Position numbers and translations under genes: made by a program. The notes below the pieces were generated by a model. The model was not told the DNA's origin. It saw only the letters and a program-made list of their open reading frames with translations, and ran no database searches. Positions 1-46,412 of a DNA stretch of 64,000 nucleotides are shown one piece after another. Each line of letters opens with the position of its first letter. The first letter of the stretch is position 1. The stretch comes from an uncultured Alphaproteobacteria bacterium (GTDB lineage: Bacteria > Pseudomonadota > Alphaproteobacteria > UBA11222), in contig CAMYID010000019.1 in NCBI GenBank assembly GCA_947258435.1, positions 1 to 64,000 on the forward strand, read 5' to 3'.

Positions 1-37
1 GGAAAGCAATAAAGCCAAATCGGGCGAGGCAGAGCAG

Positions 38-835
38 ATGAGCGAGAAAATCCGGCAATATTGGGATGAGCGGGCAGGCCAGAATGCGGGAGAGCTGACC
101 GCGACGACCCAGGATGTCTGGATGCGATATCTTGAGGTTGCCACGCTCATCGGCATGATCGATGAACTGGCACCGGCTAAAGGTGCGCGCATCGCCGATA
201 TGGGGTGTGGTGACGGCAACACCCTGCTGGCGCTCGCGCCGCGTTTTCGCGACTATGACTTCCGCGGCTTTGATTACGCGCCGCAGATGATCGAAACGGC
301 GAATAGCAATCTTGCAGCCCTCGATGCGGATGGGGGGAATCTTGCGTTTTCGGTCGGTGATGTCACCAATCCGGTGGCAAGTGTCGGCGAAGCAGGCCTC
401 GATATCGCCATGACGGACCGGTGCCTGATCAATCTTGATGACAGCGCCGCGCAGTTCCGCGCGCTAGGGGAAATTGCACGCACCCTTAAACCGGGCGGCC
501 ATTATCTTGCCATCGAGAATTTTCATGAAGGCCAGGATGCGATGAATGCGGCCCGCGGGACGATGGAACTGCCTGAAATTCAGATCCGCTGGCATAACCA
601 TTTTTTCCATGAGGCCGAATTCCGCGCTCAGGCCGCACAGCATTTCGAGACAATCGAATTCCGCGAATTCGCAAGCGCCTATTATTATGCGACCCGGGTC
701 ATCTATTCCGCCATGTGCAGAATGCAGGGAACCGATCCGGACTATCAGCATGAAATTCATCAGCTTGCCGTGAAACTGCCCCCGATGGGTAATTACAGCC
801 CGATCCGGCTTGTCATCCTGCGCAAGAAAGTCTGA
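38..835 (+). CDS. Class I SAM-dependent methyltransferase
   Basis: A 265-residue protein with the Rossmann-type SAM-binding motif I (DMGCGDGN, about residues 54-61) and a post-motif III region (LKPGGHYL). It probably methylates a small molecule or sugar; the substrate cannot be read from the sequence. It begins 38 bases into the window behind a purine-rich GAGGCAGAG stretch, so it may be the last gene of an operon that starts upstream. It converges on the minus-strand sugar operon that ends at 879. Its last five codons and stop are duplicated directly after the stop (818-853). Confidence 0.8.
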   Translation: MSEKIRQYWDERAGQNAGELTATTQDVWMRYLEVATLIGMIDELAPAKGARIADMGCGDGNTLLALAPRFRDYDFRGFDYAPQMIETANSNLAALDADGGNLAFSVGDVTNPVASVGEAGLDIAMTDRCLINLDDSAAQFRALGEIARTLKPGGHYLAIENFHEGQDAMNAARGTMELPEIQIRWHNHFFHEAEFRAQAAQHFETIEFREFASAYYYATRVIYSAMCRMQGTDPDYQHEIHQLAVKLPPMGNYSPIRLVILRKKV

Positions 836-853
836 CTGCGCAAGAAAGTCTGA
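818..853 (+). repeat. 18-bp perfect tandem duplication spanning a stop codon
   Basis: The unit CTGCGCAAGAAAGTCTGA occurs twice back to back, at 818-835 and 836-853. The first copy is the end of the methyltransferase gene (LRKKV, stop). The second copy keeps the frame and repeats the same codons and stop. Confidence 0.95.
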
Positions 854-878
854 GCCGGGCGATCGGGCCCGCCGCGCC

Positions 879-2027
879 CTATTCAGGCCCGGCCTGCAGC
901 ACCTCTTCCACCATATCGCAGACATAGGTGATATCTTCTGTGCCCAGATTATAGCCGCTGGGCAGATTAAGCCCGCGCGGCGCAATGGCATAAGACACCG
1001 TGTTTCTGCCCCGCGCCACCTGTGCCTGGGGAGTTTGCGCGAAGGCGGGAATGTCGCTCAGCGGATCAAACATCGGGCGGGTCGCAATGCCGCGCTCGCG
1101 GAATGCGGCCATCAGGGCAGGCTTTCGCCCCGCAAAGCGTTCGGGGAAGATGACTGTGACCATCCAGTAGCTGTTCAGCACCCCATCGGGTTCCGCATTG
1201 AGCGTGATCCCGGGCAAACCGCCAAGCCGCGCGGCATAGGCGGCAAAGATGTCACGCTTGCGGGCGATCAGTTCCTCAAGCCGTTCGGTCTGGGCAAGCC
1301 CCATCGCGGCCTGCATCGCCGACATCTTGTATTTGAAGCCGACCTCGGTGCTGCGGAACGAGACATCACCAGGCACCCGGCCATGATCGCGCAGAAACTG
1401 GCAACGGGCAAAAAATTCGGCATCGTCACTGACCAGCATTCCCCCTTCCCCGGTCGTCAGGGTTTTCGAGCCATGAAAGCTGAAGGCGCTGGCAAGTCCG
1501 AAACTACCCGCCGGCTGATCACGATAGCGCGAACCCGCCGCTTCCGCCGCATCCTCGATCAGTGGCAGACCATGCCGCCCGGCAAGTGCCGCAATCTCAT
1601 CCATTGGCGGCATCGAACCATACAGATCGACGATAAGGATGGCGCGCGTCTTTTCCGTTATGCAGGGGGCGATGGTTGCCGCTGTGACGCACCAGCTTTC
1701 GGGGTCCATATCCGCAAAAACAGGGGTCGCCCCGACATAGGAAACCGGTGCTGCGGACGCAATCCAAGTCACATCGGGCAAGATCACCTCGTCGCCGGGG
1801 CCGATATCAAGTGCTGCAAGCGCCAGATGCAGCCCCGATGTGCAGGACGGCAGCGCCATCGCATGCCGCCGCCCCGTAGCGGCGGCGAAAGCGCGCTCGA
1901 ACCGCTCGTGGAACAGACCGGCATTTTCAAACCAGCCATTTTCCGCCGCATCCCGCACATAGTCGATCTCGCGATCTGTAATGCTTGGCCCCGCGACCGG
2001 GATCAGCGCAGGTGAGGGCGTGCTCAT
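879..2027 (-). CDS. DegT/DnrJ/EryC1/StrS-family PLP sugar aminotransferase
   Basis: A 382-residue fold-type I PLP enzyme. The lysine expected to form the Schiff base is about K188 in FSFHGSKTLTTGEGG, and the cofactor-ring aspartate is about D159 in LIEDAAEA. Because the lysine is present, it is more likely a transaminase than a RfbH-type dehydrase, which has histidine there. The expected role is amination of an NDP-keto-sugar made by the upstream genes. It is the last gene of the minus-strand operon and its ATG overlaps the stop of the preceding methyltransferase (ATGA). The sugar and the ring position are unknown. Confidence 0.88.
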   Translation of the reverse strand: MSTPSPALIPVAGPSITDREIDYVRDAAENGWFENAGLFHERFERAFAAATGRRHAMALPSCTSGLHLALAALDIGPGDEVILPDVTWIASAAPVSYVGATPVFADMDPESWCVTAATIAPCITEKTRAILIVDLYGSMPPMDEIAALAGRHGLPLIEDAAEAAGSRYRDQPAGSFGLASAFSFHGSKTLTTGEGGMLVSDDAEFFARCQFLRDHGRVPGDVSFRSTEVGFKYKMSAMQAAMGLAQTERLEELIARKRDIFAAYAARLGGLPGITLNAEPDGVLNSYWMVTVIFPERFAGRKPALMAAFRERGIATRPMFDPLSDIPAFAQTPQAQVARGRNTVSYAIAPRGLNLPSGYNLGTEDITYVCDMVEEVLQAGPE

Positions 2028-3238
2028 GGCCGCACCTCGGTTTCATCAATCAGGGTGATCTGCAGTCCGTCAGAATCAAGTGCGGCCGCGATTTCATCAT
2101 GGTAATTGGGGTTCATGACAATCGCGGTGCGCACACCATAATGCGCAACCGCGGTTTGCGCATCGACAACCGGATGCCCGGTGATCGGAACAAAGCGTCC
2201 CTGCTTGTTACGGTTGATATCGATAAGGCACGCAATATTTTCAGCCTGCGGATCGAGTAATGCGGCCATCGTGACACCCTTGCCGCCTGCCCCCCAAAGG
2301 GCAACGCCCCCTTCAGCCGACAGCGCGCGCAACCGCGCCCGCCAATGGCCAAGGGTCGCCGCCTCCGCCGCGCGATAGGCGGCAACAAGCGCCCCCTCCC
2401 CGCGCCCGTGCGGGCTTGCGGCGGCACGTCCTTCATCGGGTTCGGGAACGGCCTCAAGCCACAGATACTGCCCGCTGAAGACATGCCGCACACCTTCGAC
2501 CGCAAATCCCGCCCGCGCCGCCGCAAAGGACAGGCTGTCTGCGGTCCAGTAATTGCAATGCTCGTAAAAGAAGTCCTGCACCACCCGGTTGCGGAATATC
2601 CATTCCGCGCAGGGCGTCTCGACATAAAGCCGCACCTGTTGTGCGGGACGGATCGCGGCCCGGATACCGCGCAGGAAACCAACCGGGTCGGGCACATGCT
2701 CAATAACATGCCGCGTCACCATGATGACCGCGCCGTCGGGCACAAGATGCCCTGTATCGCCGTCGAAATAACGCCGGTAATAGCGGTGTCGGCCACTCTC
2801 GACCTCGGCACCGCGAAACGCCGCATCAAAGCCGAAACCACAGCCCCGCCTGCCAAGCCGCGATAACACCGCTTCGAGAAAACCGCCCTGCCCGCAGCCG
2901 ATATCGACGATCGAAAGGGTGTCAGCCTCACCCCGCGCCATAGCTTCCGCCGCCTCAGCGATCTGATCGATAAGACTTGCCATATGGTCACGGAAATGCG
3001 CGGAATTTCCCTGCTCATTCTCATATTCAGGCACATAATCGACCATCGCGGGATCGAAAGCGTAATTATGCATGAAACCGCAATCGGCGCAGCGTCGGAT
3101 ATCGAGCTGCCCCGCCCGCGCCGCACGCGCCTCCTCGGCGCTTGGGAAAACGCGGTTCTGGAGCACGGCCGAACGGGGCCGCTCGACCACCGGATGCAAT
3201 GTCTCTGCCGCGCACAAACGGCATCTTGGCGCTGCCAT
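2024..3238 (-). CDS. Zinc-ribbon class I SAM methyltransferase (sugar C-methyltransferase-like)
   Basis: A three-part protein of about 404 residues. An N-terminal zinc-ribbon-like pair is visible (CRLC near residues 6-9, CADC near 50-53), then a SAM fold with VDIGCGQGGF (about 111-120), then a C-terminal domain with LWGAGGKGV resembling the C-methyltransferase C-terminal domain. This is the NovU/TylCIII-like layout and is paralogous to the gene at 4731-5969. I chose the ATG at 3238 because GGGAG at 3248-3252 is well spaced from it; a GTG at 3244 that overlaps the previous stop is the alternative. Expected to methylate a keto-sugar nucleotide. Confidence 0.8.
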   Translation of the reverse strand: MAAPRCRLCAAETLHPVVERPRSAVLQNRVFPSAEEARAARAGQLDIRRCADCGFMHNYAFDPAMVDYVPEYENEQGNSAHFRDHMASLIDQIAEAAEAMARGEADTLSIVDIGCGQGGFLEAVLSRLGRRGCGFGFDAAFRGAEVESGRHRYYRRYFDGDTGHLVPDGAVIMVTRHVIEHVPDPVGFLRGIRAAIRPAQQVRLYVETPCAEWIFRNRVVQDFFYEHCNYWTADSLSFAAARAGFAVEGVRHVFSGQYLWLEAVPEPDEGRAAASPHGRGEGALVAAYRAAEAATLGHWRARLRALSAEGGVALWGAGGKGVTMAALLDPQAENIACLIDINRNKQGRFVPITGHPVVDAQTAVAHYGVRTAIVMNPNYHDEIAAALDSDGLQITLIDETEVRP

Positions 3239-11721: not shown

Positions 11722-12848
11722 GCCCGCGTGCACTGTCCTGGCTGGCCGGCATCACCCTGATCGCTGTGATCGCCGCAGCGGCAGCCGTGATGCTGCGGCA
11801 ATCCGCAAACCAGATCGATTTTGAACCGCAATTGCTGTTTCCCGAGCTGAAAGGGCAAATCGACGCTGTCACTAAGCTGTCAATACAGCAGGGCGATGTC
11901 ACGATTACCGTAGCCCGCGACGCCGACGGTGGCTGGGGGCTGCCCGACCGGGGGGGCTGGCCCGCCAATTTCGATATGGTCCGTAAGGCCGTGCTGGGCA
12001 TGGCCAATCTGAAAGCCGTTGAACGGCGCACCGCCCGGGCCACAAACCACGCCACACTGCAACTCGCCGCGCCCGGGGCAGAAGAAGGTGCCGGGCTGCA
12101 GCTTGCATTATATGACGATGAAGACGAGCAAATGGCCGCAATCGTGATCGGCAAGGTCAAAAGCCCCGGATCGGGGACCCAGCCCGGCACTGCTTATGGC
12201 CGGCGTCTGGGTGAGGATCAGGTCTATCTGATCGCGGGCGAGGTAAGCCCCTCGCTTGAGGTCAGCACCTGGCTGGATCGCGCCCTGTTTGACATCAGGC
12301 CGGAACGGATTATGTCTCTCACCGTCACGCCGCCGGTCGGCCGCAGCTTCGATGTGCTGCGCGACAGCCCCGAGGACGATTTTCAACTCACCGAAATTCC
12401 CCAGGACAAGGAACCGGTACTACCCGATATCGCCCGCAACCTTGCGCATTCGGTGGTCCTGCTGACCCTTGAGGATGTGCGCCCGGCAGATGAAATCGCA
12501 ATGGAAAATCCCTTTGTTTCCGTCCACCGCATGTTTGATGGCATGGTATTAACCACCCGCGCGGTTCAGACCGACAGGGGCCGCTGGGCCCGTTTTAAAG
12601 CAAGCTTTGATCCCGCACAGGCTGAGCGTGCGCGCGAAGCCGGCCTGTTCGAGAAATATTCAGCCCTGCTTGATGCAGAGCAGGTCCGCGCCATGGTAAG
12701 CGCAATCAATGACCGGACCAACGGTTGGGCCTTCAAGGTGACCGGCATGAAAGCCGCCGATATGACCCGCGATTATTTCAGCCTGTTCAAGACCAGGTCG
12801 GAAGACGCCGCGCAACCGGAAAATCCGTTCGCCTCTCCTTCGCGCTGA
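11718..12848 (+). CDS. DUF4340 domain-containing protein
   Basis: About 376 residues: an N-terminal membrane anchor (about 5-24) followed by a beta-rich extracytoplasmic region typical of DUF4340, with motifs such as WGLPDRGGWPANFDMVRK. An earlier in-frame start exists at 11655, but the ATG at 11718 overlaps the preceding stop (ATGA) and has GGAGG at 11706-11710. DUF4340 genes recur beside GldA/F/G-like operons, so it is probably a further exporter subunit. Molecular function is unknown. Its stop codon lies inside the first unit of a five-copy degenerate repeat (12841-12916). Confidence 0.83.
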   Translation: MSPRALSWLAGITLIAVIAAAAAVMLRQSANQIDFEPQLLFPELKGQIDAVTKLSIQQGDVTITVARDADGGWGLPDRGGWPANFDMVRKAVLGMANLKAVERRTARATNHATLQLAAPGAEEGAGLQLALYDDEDEQMAAIVIGKVKSPGSGTQPGTAYGRRLGEDQVYLIAGEVSPSLEVSTWLDRALFDIRPERIMSLTVTPPVGRSFDVLRDSPEDDFQLTEIPQDKEPVLPDIARNLAHSVVLLTLEDVRPADEIAMENPFVSVHRMFDGMVLTTRAVQTDRGRWARFKASFDPAQAERAREAGLFEKYSALLDAEQVRAMVSAINDRTNGWAFKVTGMKAADMTRDYFSLFKTRSEDAAQPENPFASPSR

Positions 12849-12916
12849 TCTACGGCACGCCGATATTAAGACACGCTGATATAAGGCACGCTGGTTTACA
12901 GCGCGCTGACCTATCA
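12841..12916. repeat. Five degenerate tandem units of 15-16 bp at a gene end
   Basis: Units CGCGCTGATCTACGG (12841), CACGCCGATATTAAGA (12856), CACGCTGATATAAGG (12872), CACGCTGGTTTACAG (12887) and CGCGCTGACCTATCA (12902) follow one another. The TGA stop of the DUF4340 gene is inside the first unit. Confidence 0.8.
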
Positions 12917-12943: not shown

Positions 12944-12990
12944 GCACGTGGCCCGGGAACGCATGGCCTGGGAACGCATGGCCTGGGAAC
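12944..12990. repeat. 15-bp tandem repeat (two perfect copies plus one degenerate)
   Basis: GCATGGCCTGGGAAC occurs at 12961-12975 and 12976-12990, preceded by the related GCACGTGGCCCGGGAAC at 12944-12960. The last copy forms the left arm of the hairpin at 12981-13007. Confidence 0.85.
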
Positions 12991-27301: not shown

Positions 27302-27417
27302 CTTCCTCTATACTCCTTCATCTACTGCCACCGCGCATGCCTGACACCGGCGGCCACCGGCAATAATCATATACAGGCAGCCGATTGACCGCGACCTATC
27401 AATTACAGGAGAGGATG

Positions 27418-28188
27418 ATGAGCGACCTACAAATTCACCAGTTCGAATGCCTGAGCGACAATTATTCCTGGCTCGTGCATGATCCTGAGGCAAATGTGAC
27501 AGCGGTCGTCGATACCCCTGAAGTCGGCCCCATCCTGCAGGCGCTTGAGGATACCGGCTGGCAACTGACACATATCCTCAATACGCACCACCATTTCGAT
27601 CATGCCGGCGGCAATGAGGAACTGAAAGCCAAGACCGGCTGTCAGATCATCGGCTCAAAGTCAGATGCCGCCCGCATTCCGGGCATCGATCTGCAGGTCG
27701 GTGACGGCGACAGCTTCACCTTCGGCACGCATAAGGTCGAGGTGTTCGACGTATCGGGCCACACAATCGGGCATATCGCCTTCTGGTTTCCCGATGACAA
27801 ACTCATCTTTGTCGGCGATGCATTATTTGCACTGGGCTGCGGGCGGCTGTTTGAAGGCTCACCCGCGCAGATGTGGCAATCACTGCAGAAACTGACCGCA
27901 CTGCCAGAAGATACGACCGTTTATTGCGCGCATGAATATACCCAGTCGAACGCGAAATTCGCACTGACGGTGGAACCCGATAACGCCGCGCTTGTTGACC
28001 GGGCCAGGCAGATCGACGCCATGCGGGCAAAGGGTGTTCCGACCGTTCCCACCACCATCGGGCTTGAGCTTGAAACCAATCCCTTCCTGCGTCCCGACAG
28101 CACGGATCTGCAACGCACCATCGGCATGGAAGGCGCGGGCATGGTGGAAGTGTTCGCCGAAACCCGGCGGCTGAAGGACAATTTCTAA
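27418..28188 (+). CDS. gloB: Hydroxyacylglutathione hydrolase (glyoxalase II)
   Basis: About 256 residues of metallo-beta-lactamase fold with the metal motif NTHHHFDHAGG (about 51-61), the second-site aspartate and histidines in FVGDALFALGCGR and CAHEYTQSN, and a C-terminal glutathione-binding region. It hydrolyses S-lactoylglutathione to lactate in methylglyoxal detoxification. The ATG at 27418 is chosen because AGGAG (27407-27411) lies 6 bases before it; ATG at 27415 and an upstream start are less well spaced. Confidence 0.94.
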   Translation: MSDLQIHQFECLSDNYSWLVHDPEANVTAVVDTPEVGPILQALEDTGWQLTHILNTHHHFDHAGGNEELKAKTGCQIIGSKSDAARIPGIDLQVGDGDSFTFGTHKVEVFDVSGHTIGHIAFWFPDDKLIFVGDALFALGCGRLFEGSPAQMWQSLQKLTALPEDTTVYCAHEYTQSNAKFALTVEPDNAALVDRARQIDAMRAKGVPTVPTTIGLELETNPFLRPDSTDLQRTIGMEGAGMVEVFAETRRLKDNF

Positions 28189-28208
28189 CCGCATGTTCTA
28201 ACCGCATG
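28183..28208 (+). repeat. 13-bp perfect tandem duplication across the gloB stop
   Basis: TTCTAACCGCATG occurs at 28183-28195 and 28196-28208. The first copy contains the TAA stop of gloB. A third partial copy (TTCTAACCGG) follows the terminator at 28251. Confidence 0.95.
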
Positions 28209-28249: not shown

Positions 28250-28316
28250 GTTCTAACCGGCCAATTCGCCACCTGGCCAACTGGCCCGGACGGCTCCGCG
28301 CCGGCGGAACCCGAAA

Positions 28317-40711: not shown

Positions 40712-40736
40712 GGCGATCTGCACCTCAATTCCGATA

Positions 40737-40764
40737 TCTCAAGCCTCAAATCTCAAGCCTCAAC
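40737..40764 (-). repeat. 14-bp tandem duplication across the EVE-gene stop
   Basis: TCTCAAGCCTCAAA (40737-40750) and TCTCAAGCCTCAAC (40751-40764). On the minus strand this repeats the last codons and TGA of the EVE-domain gene (stop at 40753-40755). Confidence 0.9.
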
Positions 40765-41172
40765 CCCGCCCATCCGGCAGATCAGCGCCCAGCTTTCCGG
40801 ATCGACCGGCGTTACCGACAGGCGCGACTGTCGCACCAGCGCCATTTCCTGCAGCCGCGGTTCAGCCTTGATATCGGCCAGCGTCACCGGATGAGGCACC
40901 GGTTTTACCGCCTGCACATCAACCATCCCGAACCGCCCCCTGGGATCGGTATGGTCAGGATAATGTTCGCGGATCACCTTGACGATACCGACAATCCGCT
41001 TTTCATTGACCGAGTGATAAAAGAAGCCAAGGTCGCCCTTGCGCATGGCCTTCATATTGTTGTCGGCCTGATAATTGCGCACCCCGTCCCAATGTTCGCC
41101 CTTCTTGCCCGCCTTCACCTGATCCTCCCACGACCAGGTACCCGGTTCAGACTTGAACAACCAATAAGCCAT
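40753..41172 (-). CDS. EVE domain-containing protein
   Basis: A 139-residue EVE/PUA-like protein, starting AYWLFKSEPGTWSWEDQVKAG and carrying the WDGVRNYQADNNMKAM and DLGFFYHSV blocks that line the base-binding cage. EVE domains bind modified nucleotides in DNA or RNA; in this housekeeping setting (next to YciI, gpsA, tsaD) an RNA-modification-related role is plausible but unproven. It lies 8 bases after the YciI gene on the same strand. Confidence 0.92.
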   Translation of the reverse strand: MAYWLFKSEPGTWSWEDQVKAGKKGEHWDGVRNYQADNNMKAMRKGDLGFFYHSVNEKRIVGIVKVIREHYPDHTDPRGRFGMVDVQAVKPVPHPVTLADIKAEPRLQEMALVRQSRLSVTPVDPESWALICRMGGVEA

Positions 41173-44023: not shown

Positions 44024-44066
44024 GGCAGATCCGATTGGCAGGCCGGATTGACGGGCCGGATTGACG
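44024..44066. repeat. 13-bp tandem repeat after the microprotein genes
   Basis: GGCCGGATTGACG occurs at 44041-44053 and 44054-44066, preceded by a related copy (GGCAGATCCGATTG) from 44024. Confidence 0.85.
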
Positions 44067-44087
44067 GGAATGTGAGCTTCCTCCCCT

Positions 44088-45430: not shown

Positions 45431-46375
45431 ATGCGAATTCACCGGCAATTGCCGATCCGGATCGGAACCCGTGGCAGTGAACTGGCCCTGGCGCAGGCCC
45501 ATGAAACCCGGGACCGGCTGCTCAGGGCCCATCCGGAGCTGAACGCCGACGATATCGAAATCCATGTCATCCACACCACCGGCGACAAGGTCCAGAACCG
45601 CCCGCTGTCGGAAATCGGCGGCAAGGGACTGTTCACCAAGGAGATCGAGGAGGCACTGCTCGATGGCACGCTCGATCTCGCGGTGCATTCGATGAAGGAT
45701 ATGCCGACCGAATTTCCACCCGGGCTTGGCATTGTCTGCCTGCTTGAACGCGAACATCCCGGCGATGCGTTTATCAGCCCCAAAGCCACGACAATCAATG
45801 AATTGCCGCAGGGCGCGGTCGTTGGCTCTTCTTCGCTAAGGCGGCAGGCCATCCTGCTGCGTGAGCGGCCGGATCTGAAAGTGGTCATGTATCGCGGCAA
45901 TGTCGGCACCCGGCTTGCCAAGCTGGCCGCGGGCGAGGTCGATGCCACGCTGCTTGCCGCGGCGGGGCTTCACCGGCTCAGTCTCGCATCCCATATCACC
46001 AGCATTGTGCCCTACAGCCAGATGCTGCCCGCCGTCGCGCAAGGGGCAATCGGTATCGAGATTGCGCTGGCCGATACGGAAATGGCTGAACTGCTCGCAC
46101 CGCTCAACCATCGGGAGACAGAAATCCGTGTCAGTGCCGAACGCGCATTCCTGGCCGCGCTCGACGGGTCCTGCAAGACACCGATTGCAGCCCTGGCCGA
46201 ACTCGACAAGAACGGGCAGCTTTTATTCCGGGGGCAGATTATTCGCCCCGACGGGAGCGAGACACTGGAAGCGGAACGCAGAGGCACATCGGAAATGGCT
46301 GCAACCCTTGGCCGCGAAGCAGGAGAGGCGCTGCGCAATCAGGGCGGAAAAGCATTTTTCGAGGAAACCTTTTAA
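45431..46375 (+). CDS. hemC: Hydroxymethylbilane synthase (porphobilinogen deaminase)
   Basis: A 314-residue HemC with [15 protein letters not shown] (about 10-24), the [10 protein letters not shown] loop, GSSSLRRQA and the dipyrromethane-cofactor cysteine in [12 protein letters not shown] (about C248). It joins four porphobilinogen units into hydroxymethylbilane in heme synthesis. It leads the hemC-hemD-mitofilin-like-hemY set. Its end is copied in a three-unit tandem repeat leading to hemD. Confidence 0.96.
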
Positions 46376-46412
46376 GGGAGAGGAACCTTTAAGGGAGGAG
46401 AGCCTTTAAGGA
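46361..46412 (+). repeat. Three degenerate tandem units across the hemC stop
   Basis: GAGGAAACCTTTTAAGGGA (46361-46379), GAGGAACCTTTAAGGGA (46380-46396) and GGAGAGCCTTTAAGGA (46397-46412). The hemC TAA is in the first unit and the AAGGA that precedes hemD is in the third, so the duplications multiply a Shine-Dalgarno-like sequence. Confidence 0.88.

Follow-up and report, generated by a model that had tools for sequence, protein, structure and literature searches.

The end of a predicted methyltransferase gene in a stretch of alphaproteobacterial DNA is written twice, stop codon included and in the same reading frame. This raises the question of whether the second stop is a selected safeguard against readthrough or the by-product of a duplication that did no harm. 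The locus lies near one edge of the stretch that we analysed, which is 64,000 nt long and is called the window below. The window is part of genome G000, and for comparison we utilized G001, the nearest relative and a sister in the same genus, four further genomes of the same family (G002-G005) and an unrelated alphaproteobacterial genome, G021. We find that the duplicated gene end is real and ordinary, a lineage-specific and probably neutral tandem duplication of 18 bp in which a stop happens to be included.

The duplicated gene end and its surroundings

The open reading frame at positions 38-835 of the forward strand begins with ATG at 38, encodes 265 amino acids with the C-terminus ...LVILRKKV and ends with TGA at 833-835. 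Its identification in the earlier note as a methyltransferase gene is supported by a match of the product to Pfam Methyltransf_31 (E 2.2e-14); Methyltransf_25 and Methyltransf_11 also match, as for a SAM-dependent methyltransferase, and orthologues are present in five of five same-family genomes. The unit CTGCGCAAGAAAGTCTGA, 18 bp in length, is present twice in the assembled contig in a head-to-tail arrangement, at 818-835 and 836-853, and the two copies are 100% identical. Copy 1 comprises the last five codons together with the stop in use, and copy 2, which appears to be inserted, continues in the same frame, ends in TGA and would be translated only if the first stop were read through. The earlier description of a perfect in-frame copy of the five final codons and TGA is therefore accurate, as is its proposal of a readthrough tail, which would consist of one residue at the position of the first TGA followed by LRKKV. 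Downstream lies a convergent DegT/DnrJ/EryC1-type aminotransferase gene (879-2027, reverse strand; Pfam E 4.9e-111), so the duplication sits in the convergent 3' spacer of the two genes. An RNA element or terminator at 818-853 was considered and rejected, as there is no Rfam match in window positions 1-3000, no terminator-like or promoter-like site in positions 700-1100, and a predicted fold at 818-853 that is not better than that of shuffled sequences (z -0.65).

A search with the methyltransferase protein against 60 related genomes and G000, from which matches of at most 46% identity were left out of the comparison, gave orthologues with 90% amino acid identity in G001 and 64-68% in G002-G005. 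The earlier note had allowed that relatives might all carry a second copy that had diverged from the gene end. Instead, all five relatives have a single copy of the gene end with no repeat behind it. When one copy is removed from the window, its alignment with G001 runs without a gap over 138 bp (104/138 identical), the distance from the stop to a conserved CTATTCAGG is 25 bp in both genomes, and a downstream sequence pattern at the aminotransferase side is common to both. The gapless alignment without one copy argues for a lineage-specific insertion of 18 bp, and the simplest reading of these sequences is that 818-853 represents such an insertion in the G000 lineage.

The most probable account, one that we hold with considerable confidence, is that this is a neutral, recent and lineage-specific tandem duplication, one of many short de novo duplications in G000. 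Eighteen base pairs at the 3' terminus of this gene would recently have been duplicated head to tail, and the copy would have been retained since the protein is unaffected, the ribosome reaching the first stop first. The sole effect of copy 2 would be a 3' spacer that is longer by 18 bp. Bacterial minisatellites, or VNTR loci, are likewise built from short tandem units in spacers, and the units at 818-853 could later vary in copy number; unlike VNTR loci, there are only two copies here, as judged from one genome per species.

The earlier note regarded this locus as one of several stop-spanning duplications, and the window does contain three exact ones with units of at least 10 bp (18, 13 and 14 bp), at 818-853, 28183-28208 and 40736-40763, all three at genes with good Pfam matches. 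The duplication at 28183-28208 (forward strand, 13-bp unit) spans the stop of a metallo-beta-lactamase/HAGH_C gene (27415-28188), and G001 has no repeat that matches it. Behind a terminator-like hairpin, at 28251-28260, TTCTAACCGG forms a third, out-of-register repeat of the start of the same unit. The duplication at 40736-40763 (reverse strand, 14-bp unit) spans the stop of an EVE-domain gene (40753-41172). At the equivalent position in G001, just past the end of the orthologous gene (L066), the near-repeat that surrounds the stop is a different one, CCTTAGGGAGGG / CCTTAGGGGGTGGG / TCTTAGGAGTGGG, and suggests that this gene end was duplicated independently. With units of 18, 13 and 14 bp, reading frame is not kept among the three. 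The same class also includes perfect intergenic duplications at 12955-12990 (15-bp unit, 2.4 copies) and 44041-44068 (13-bp unit). Two imperfect arrays at or near gene ends, at 12843-12893 (15-bp unit, 3.3 copies) and 46361-46411 (17-bp unit, 2.9 copies), are perhaps older members of it.

Short tandem duplications across the sampled genomes

To place the locus in its genomic setting we consider 1.256 Mb of G000 (window included) and 0.446 Mb of G001, together with G021 and seven control sets (G014, G017, G008, G032, G023, the family genomes and E. coli K-12). The sampled stretches are a non-random set of contig starts and a coarse grid, and for G021 and the family members they are the contigs that carried search hits. 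Genes were called with a simple codon-usage script in place of a standard gene finder. One 6.1-kb stretch of G000 (L032) was excluded from all counts, and L007, which overlaps and lies within L057, was omitted from the family set in the density count of 13-23-bp units.

There are 31 exact arrays with units of 10-200 bp in the G000 sample, comprising 16 intergenic, six stop-spanning, one start-spanning and eight within genes; the 14 in G001 are divided into six intergenic, three stop-spanning and five within genes. The start-spanning case, a 20-bp tandem duplication across a start codon at L081 1329-1369, has no counterpart elsewhere in the sampled part of G000. Units inside genes measure 10, 12, 12, 12, 15, 18, 18 and 33 bp in G000 and 12, 12, 14, 15 and 15 bp in G001. 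Divisibility by three in 11 of these 13 is expected if frameshifting duplications are removed. An alignment spanning the array could be made between G000 and G001 for 7 of the 31 G000 arrays and 5 of the 14 G001 arrays, and among these one coding array is common to both genomes while the others are missing from the partner genome or cannot be recognised there.

When the G000 sample is shuffled with a first-order Markov model, exact tandem repeats with units of at least 13 bp do not occur, and thus the repeat at 818-853 is not a product of chance. Units of 13-23 bp, a size class fixed post hoc once the shuffles had yielded none from 13 bp up, form 20 perfect arrays outside gene interiors in 142.9 kb of noncoding G000 sequence, 4 in 48.7 kb of G001 and 11 in 17.8 kb of G021, versus none in 119.0 kb from the seven control sets. 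The median unit over these 35 arrays is 16 bp. Four stretches of G021 (L187-L190, 62 kb) contain 19 exact tandem duplications whose units are at least 10 bp long, by far the highest density among the sampled genomes. The E. coli K-12 sample has a single array with a unit of at least 10 bp, and its unit is 98 bp long. Arrays with units of 10-12 bp, some of which may be due to chance, are present between genes in G008 (one) and G023 (two) and inside genes in G017 (two) and G023 (one). Within these non-random samples and this post hoc size class, the density of short duplications is raised in G000, at the level of its genus, and in G021.

Origin of the copies

Replication slippage is a textbook source of tandem duplications, and slippage between pre-existing short repeats is the alternative that survives best, although we consider it unlikely for 818-853. 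In its favor, 5 of the 29 arrays with fewer than 2.5 copies have at least four extra matching bases, versus 2.4% of duplications placed at random in silico. However, the two copies at 818-853 are flanked by 0 extra matching bases on either side and so bear no trace of slippage. Likewise, 13 of the 29 arrays have no extra matching base at all (54% in the random in-silico duplications), and unit lengths centre on 16 bp; shuffled sequence has no units of 13 bp or longer. On these microhomology counts most arrays look repeat-independent, while a minority may involve microhomology. We infer neutrality, a recent date and a de novo, repeat-independent process for the 818-853 copy; such a process might be, for example, break fill-in or a topoisomerase-linked duplication, as opposed to slippage between existing repeats. 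The short duplications of this genome, mostly of 13-23 bp, are located mainly where they do little harm, namely in spacers, at the edges of stops or, with the frame preserved, within genes.

An artefact of metagenome assembly is a much less probable source. The contig that holds the window opens with 100 bases that recur, without a mismatch, as the final 100 bases of G000 contigs C1 and C6, and window positions 1-100 are an unresolved assembly branch, caused by a repeat or by strain variation. That the window begins at such a branch would favor an artefact. However, at 36 bp the array falls short of the 100-base overlap suggested by the contig ends, so that ordinary graph ambiguity should not create it. 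Furthermore, one coding 12-bp duplication is identical in the separately assembled G001, and samples from the comparably fragmented genomes G008, G032 and G023 have no arrays with 13-23-bp units.

A third alternative returns to the question posed at the outset, in that copy 2 may be a selected fail-safe tandem stop whose in-frame TGA limits the damage from a leaky first TGA. Copy 2 is indeed in frame with TGA at its end, and among exact stop-spanning units of at least 10 bp in the three genomes 6 of 11 are divisible by three, where chance would give about 3.7. However, only one of the three stop-spanning units in the window is in frame, 4 of 9 stop-spanning units of 13-23 bp are divisible by three, and the 818-853 copy is neither kept nor gained in any of five relatives. 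Since divisibility by three is not consistent among the units, we regard a selected fail-safe stop, with the remaining evidence, as highly improbable. Ho and Hurst (PMC6764699) point the same way, reporting no selection for additional stops in eubacteria, where downstream in-frame stops are scarce rather than enriched. The locus resembles the fail-safe stops of that literature in having a second in-frame stop close behind the first. It differs from them since those evolved by point changes, whereas the stop at 853 would have come with a duplicated gene end; most sibling stop duplications in the window are, moreover, out of frame. A readthrough or backup-stop function thus finds no support in the frame of the three window units or in the stop share outside the window.

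That stop share depends on the null against which it is measured. With all intergenic placements as the null, 6 of 22 G000 arrays span a stop when about 8.5% is expected (P 0.009), as do 3 of 9 in G001 (P 0.036), while G000 without the window gives 3 of 17 (P 0.17). All three stop-spanning cases in the first 456 kb sampled are in the window. When placements are confined to the 60 bp of 3' flank next to a stop, constrained 5' regions drop out of the comparison, and under this null G000 (window removed), G001 and G021 together give 8 of 22 with 5.3 expected (P 0.13). On this result a stop-specific mechanism was set aside as unproven. Whenever a duplication takes in the stop, the encoded protein stays the same and the copy is thus tolerated, and in our view plain tolerance suffices to account for the stop-spanning copies; the excess under the coarser all-intergenic null leaves room for a mild stop preference. 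A search of the open-licence literature brought up no account of short duplications that span stops in bacterial genomes.

Joining of staggered breaks by Ku/LigD after fill-in of their overhangs, a route that can give repeat-independent tandem duplications (a plant case is cited in PMC6954433), is as improbable as the fail-safe stop and was rejected. Neither G000 (95% complete) nor G001 (100% complete) has a match to Ku (PF02735), a result that speaks against a Ku-dependent process of this kind, and 0.2 Mb of the Ku-bearing G017 contained none of these duplications outside genes.

A possible natural duplication mutator

The closest known parallel to the short duplications described above is an E. 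coli mutator. As reported by Bachar et al. (PMC6954433), tandem duplications of 2-19 bp arise de novo in the topA R168C mutant, independently of existing repeats, and R168 is conserved across all 1750 homologues aligned there; the same source treats the way in which non-repeated DNA gives rise to tandem repeats as an open question. Both that mutant and G000 have perfect, short head-to-tail duplications, many of which are repeat-independent. The excess of repeat-independent short duplications that such a mutator would leave is present here, with 20 arrays of 13-23 bp in 143 kb of noncoding DNA versus 0 in 119 kb of controls. Lengths of 2-19 bp reported for galK in that study compare with a median of 16 bp (13-23 bp) here, a comparison limited by the fact that units below about 10 bp are not separable from chance in our samples. 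The published case concerns a laboratory strain that carries a point mutation and shows hotspots, whereas here a natural lineage is concerned and topA is present, in G000 as one open frame of 943 codons. Two degenerate patterns for the R168 neighbourhood matched topA in none of 11 genomes, a result that carries no information on this residue. The signature in G000 resembles topA R168C duplications in kind and size, and any causal link is hypothetical.

We raise as a tentative possibility, one that we think somewhat doubtful, that the genus of G000 and, independently, the lineage of G021 are natural duplication mutators. In that case DNA topology or break repair would be lastingly altered, so that perfect, mostly microhomology-free duplications of 13-23 bp would keep being added throughout the genome, and the stop-spanning copies would be those that are invisible to protein selection. 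If this is true, such genomes would be a natural record of tandem repeats starting from non-repeated DNA. The single duplication at 818-853 carries little weight by itself, but it shows why gene ends gather copies, as a duplication that contains the stop spares the protein. The excess of 13-23-bp units in the genus and in G021, with none in the controls, bears on the origin of tandem repeats from non-repeated sequence. Consequently, the genus of G000 and G021 are lineages in which topoisomerase and repair genes may be compared.
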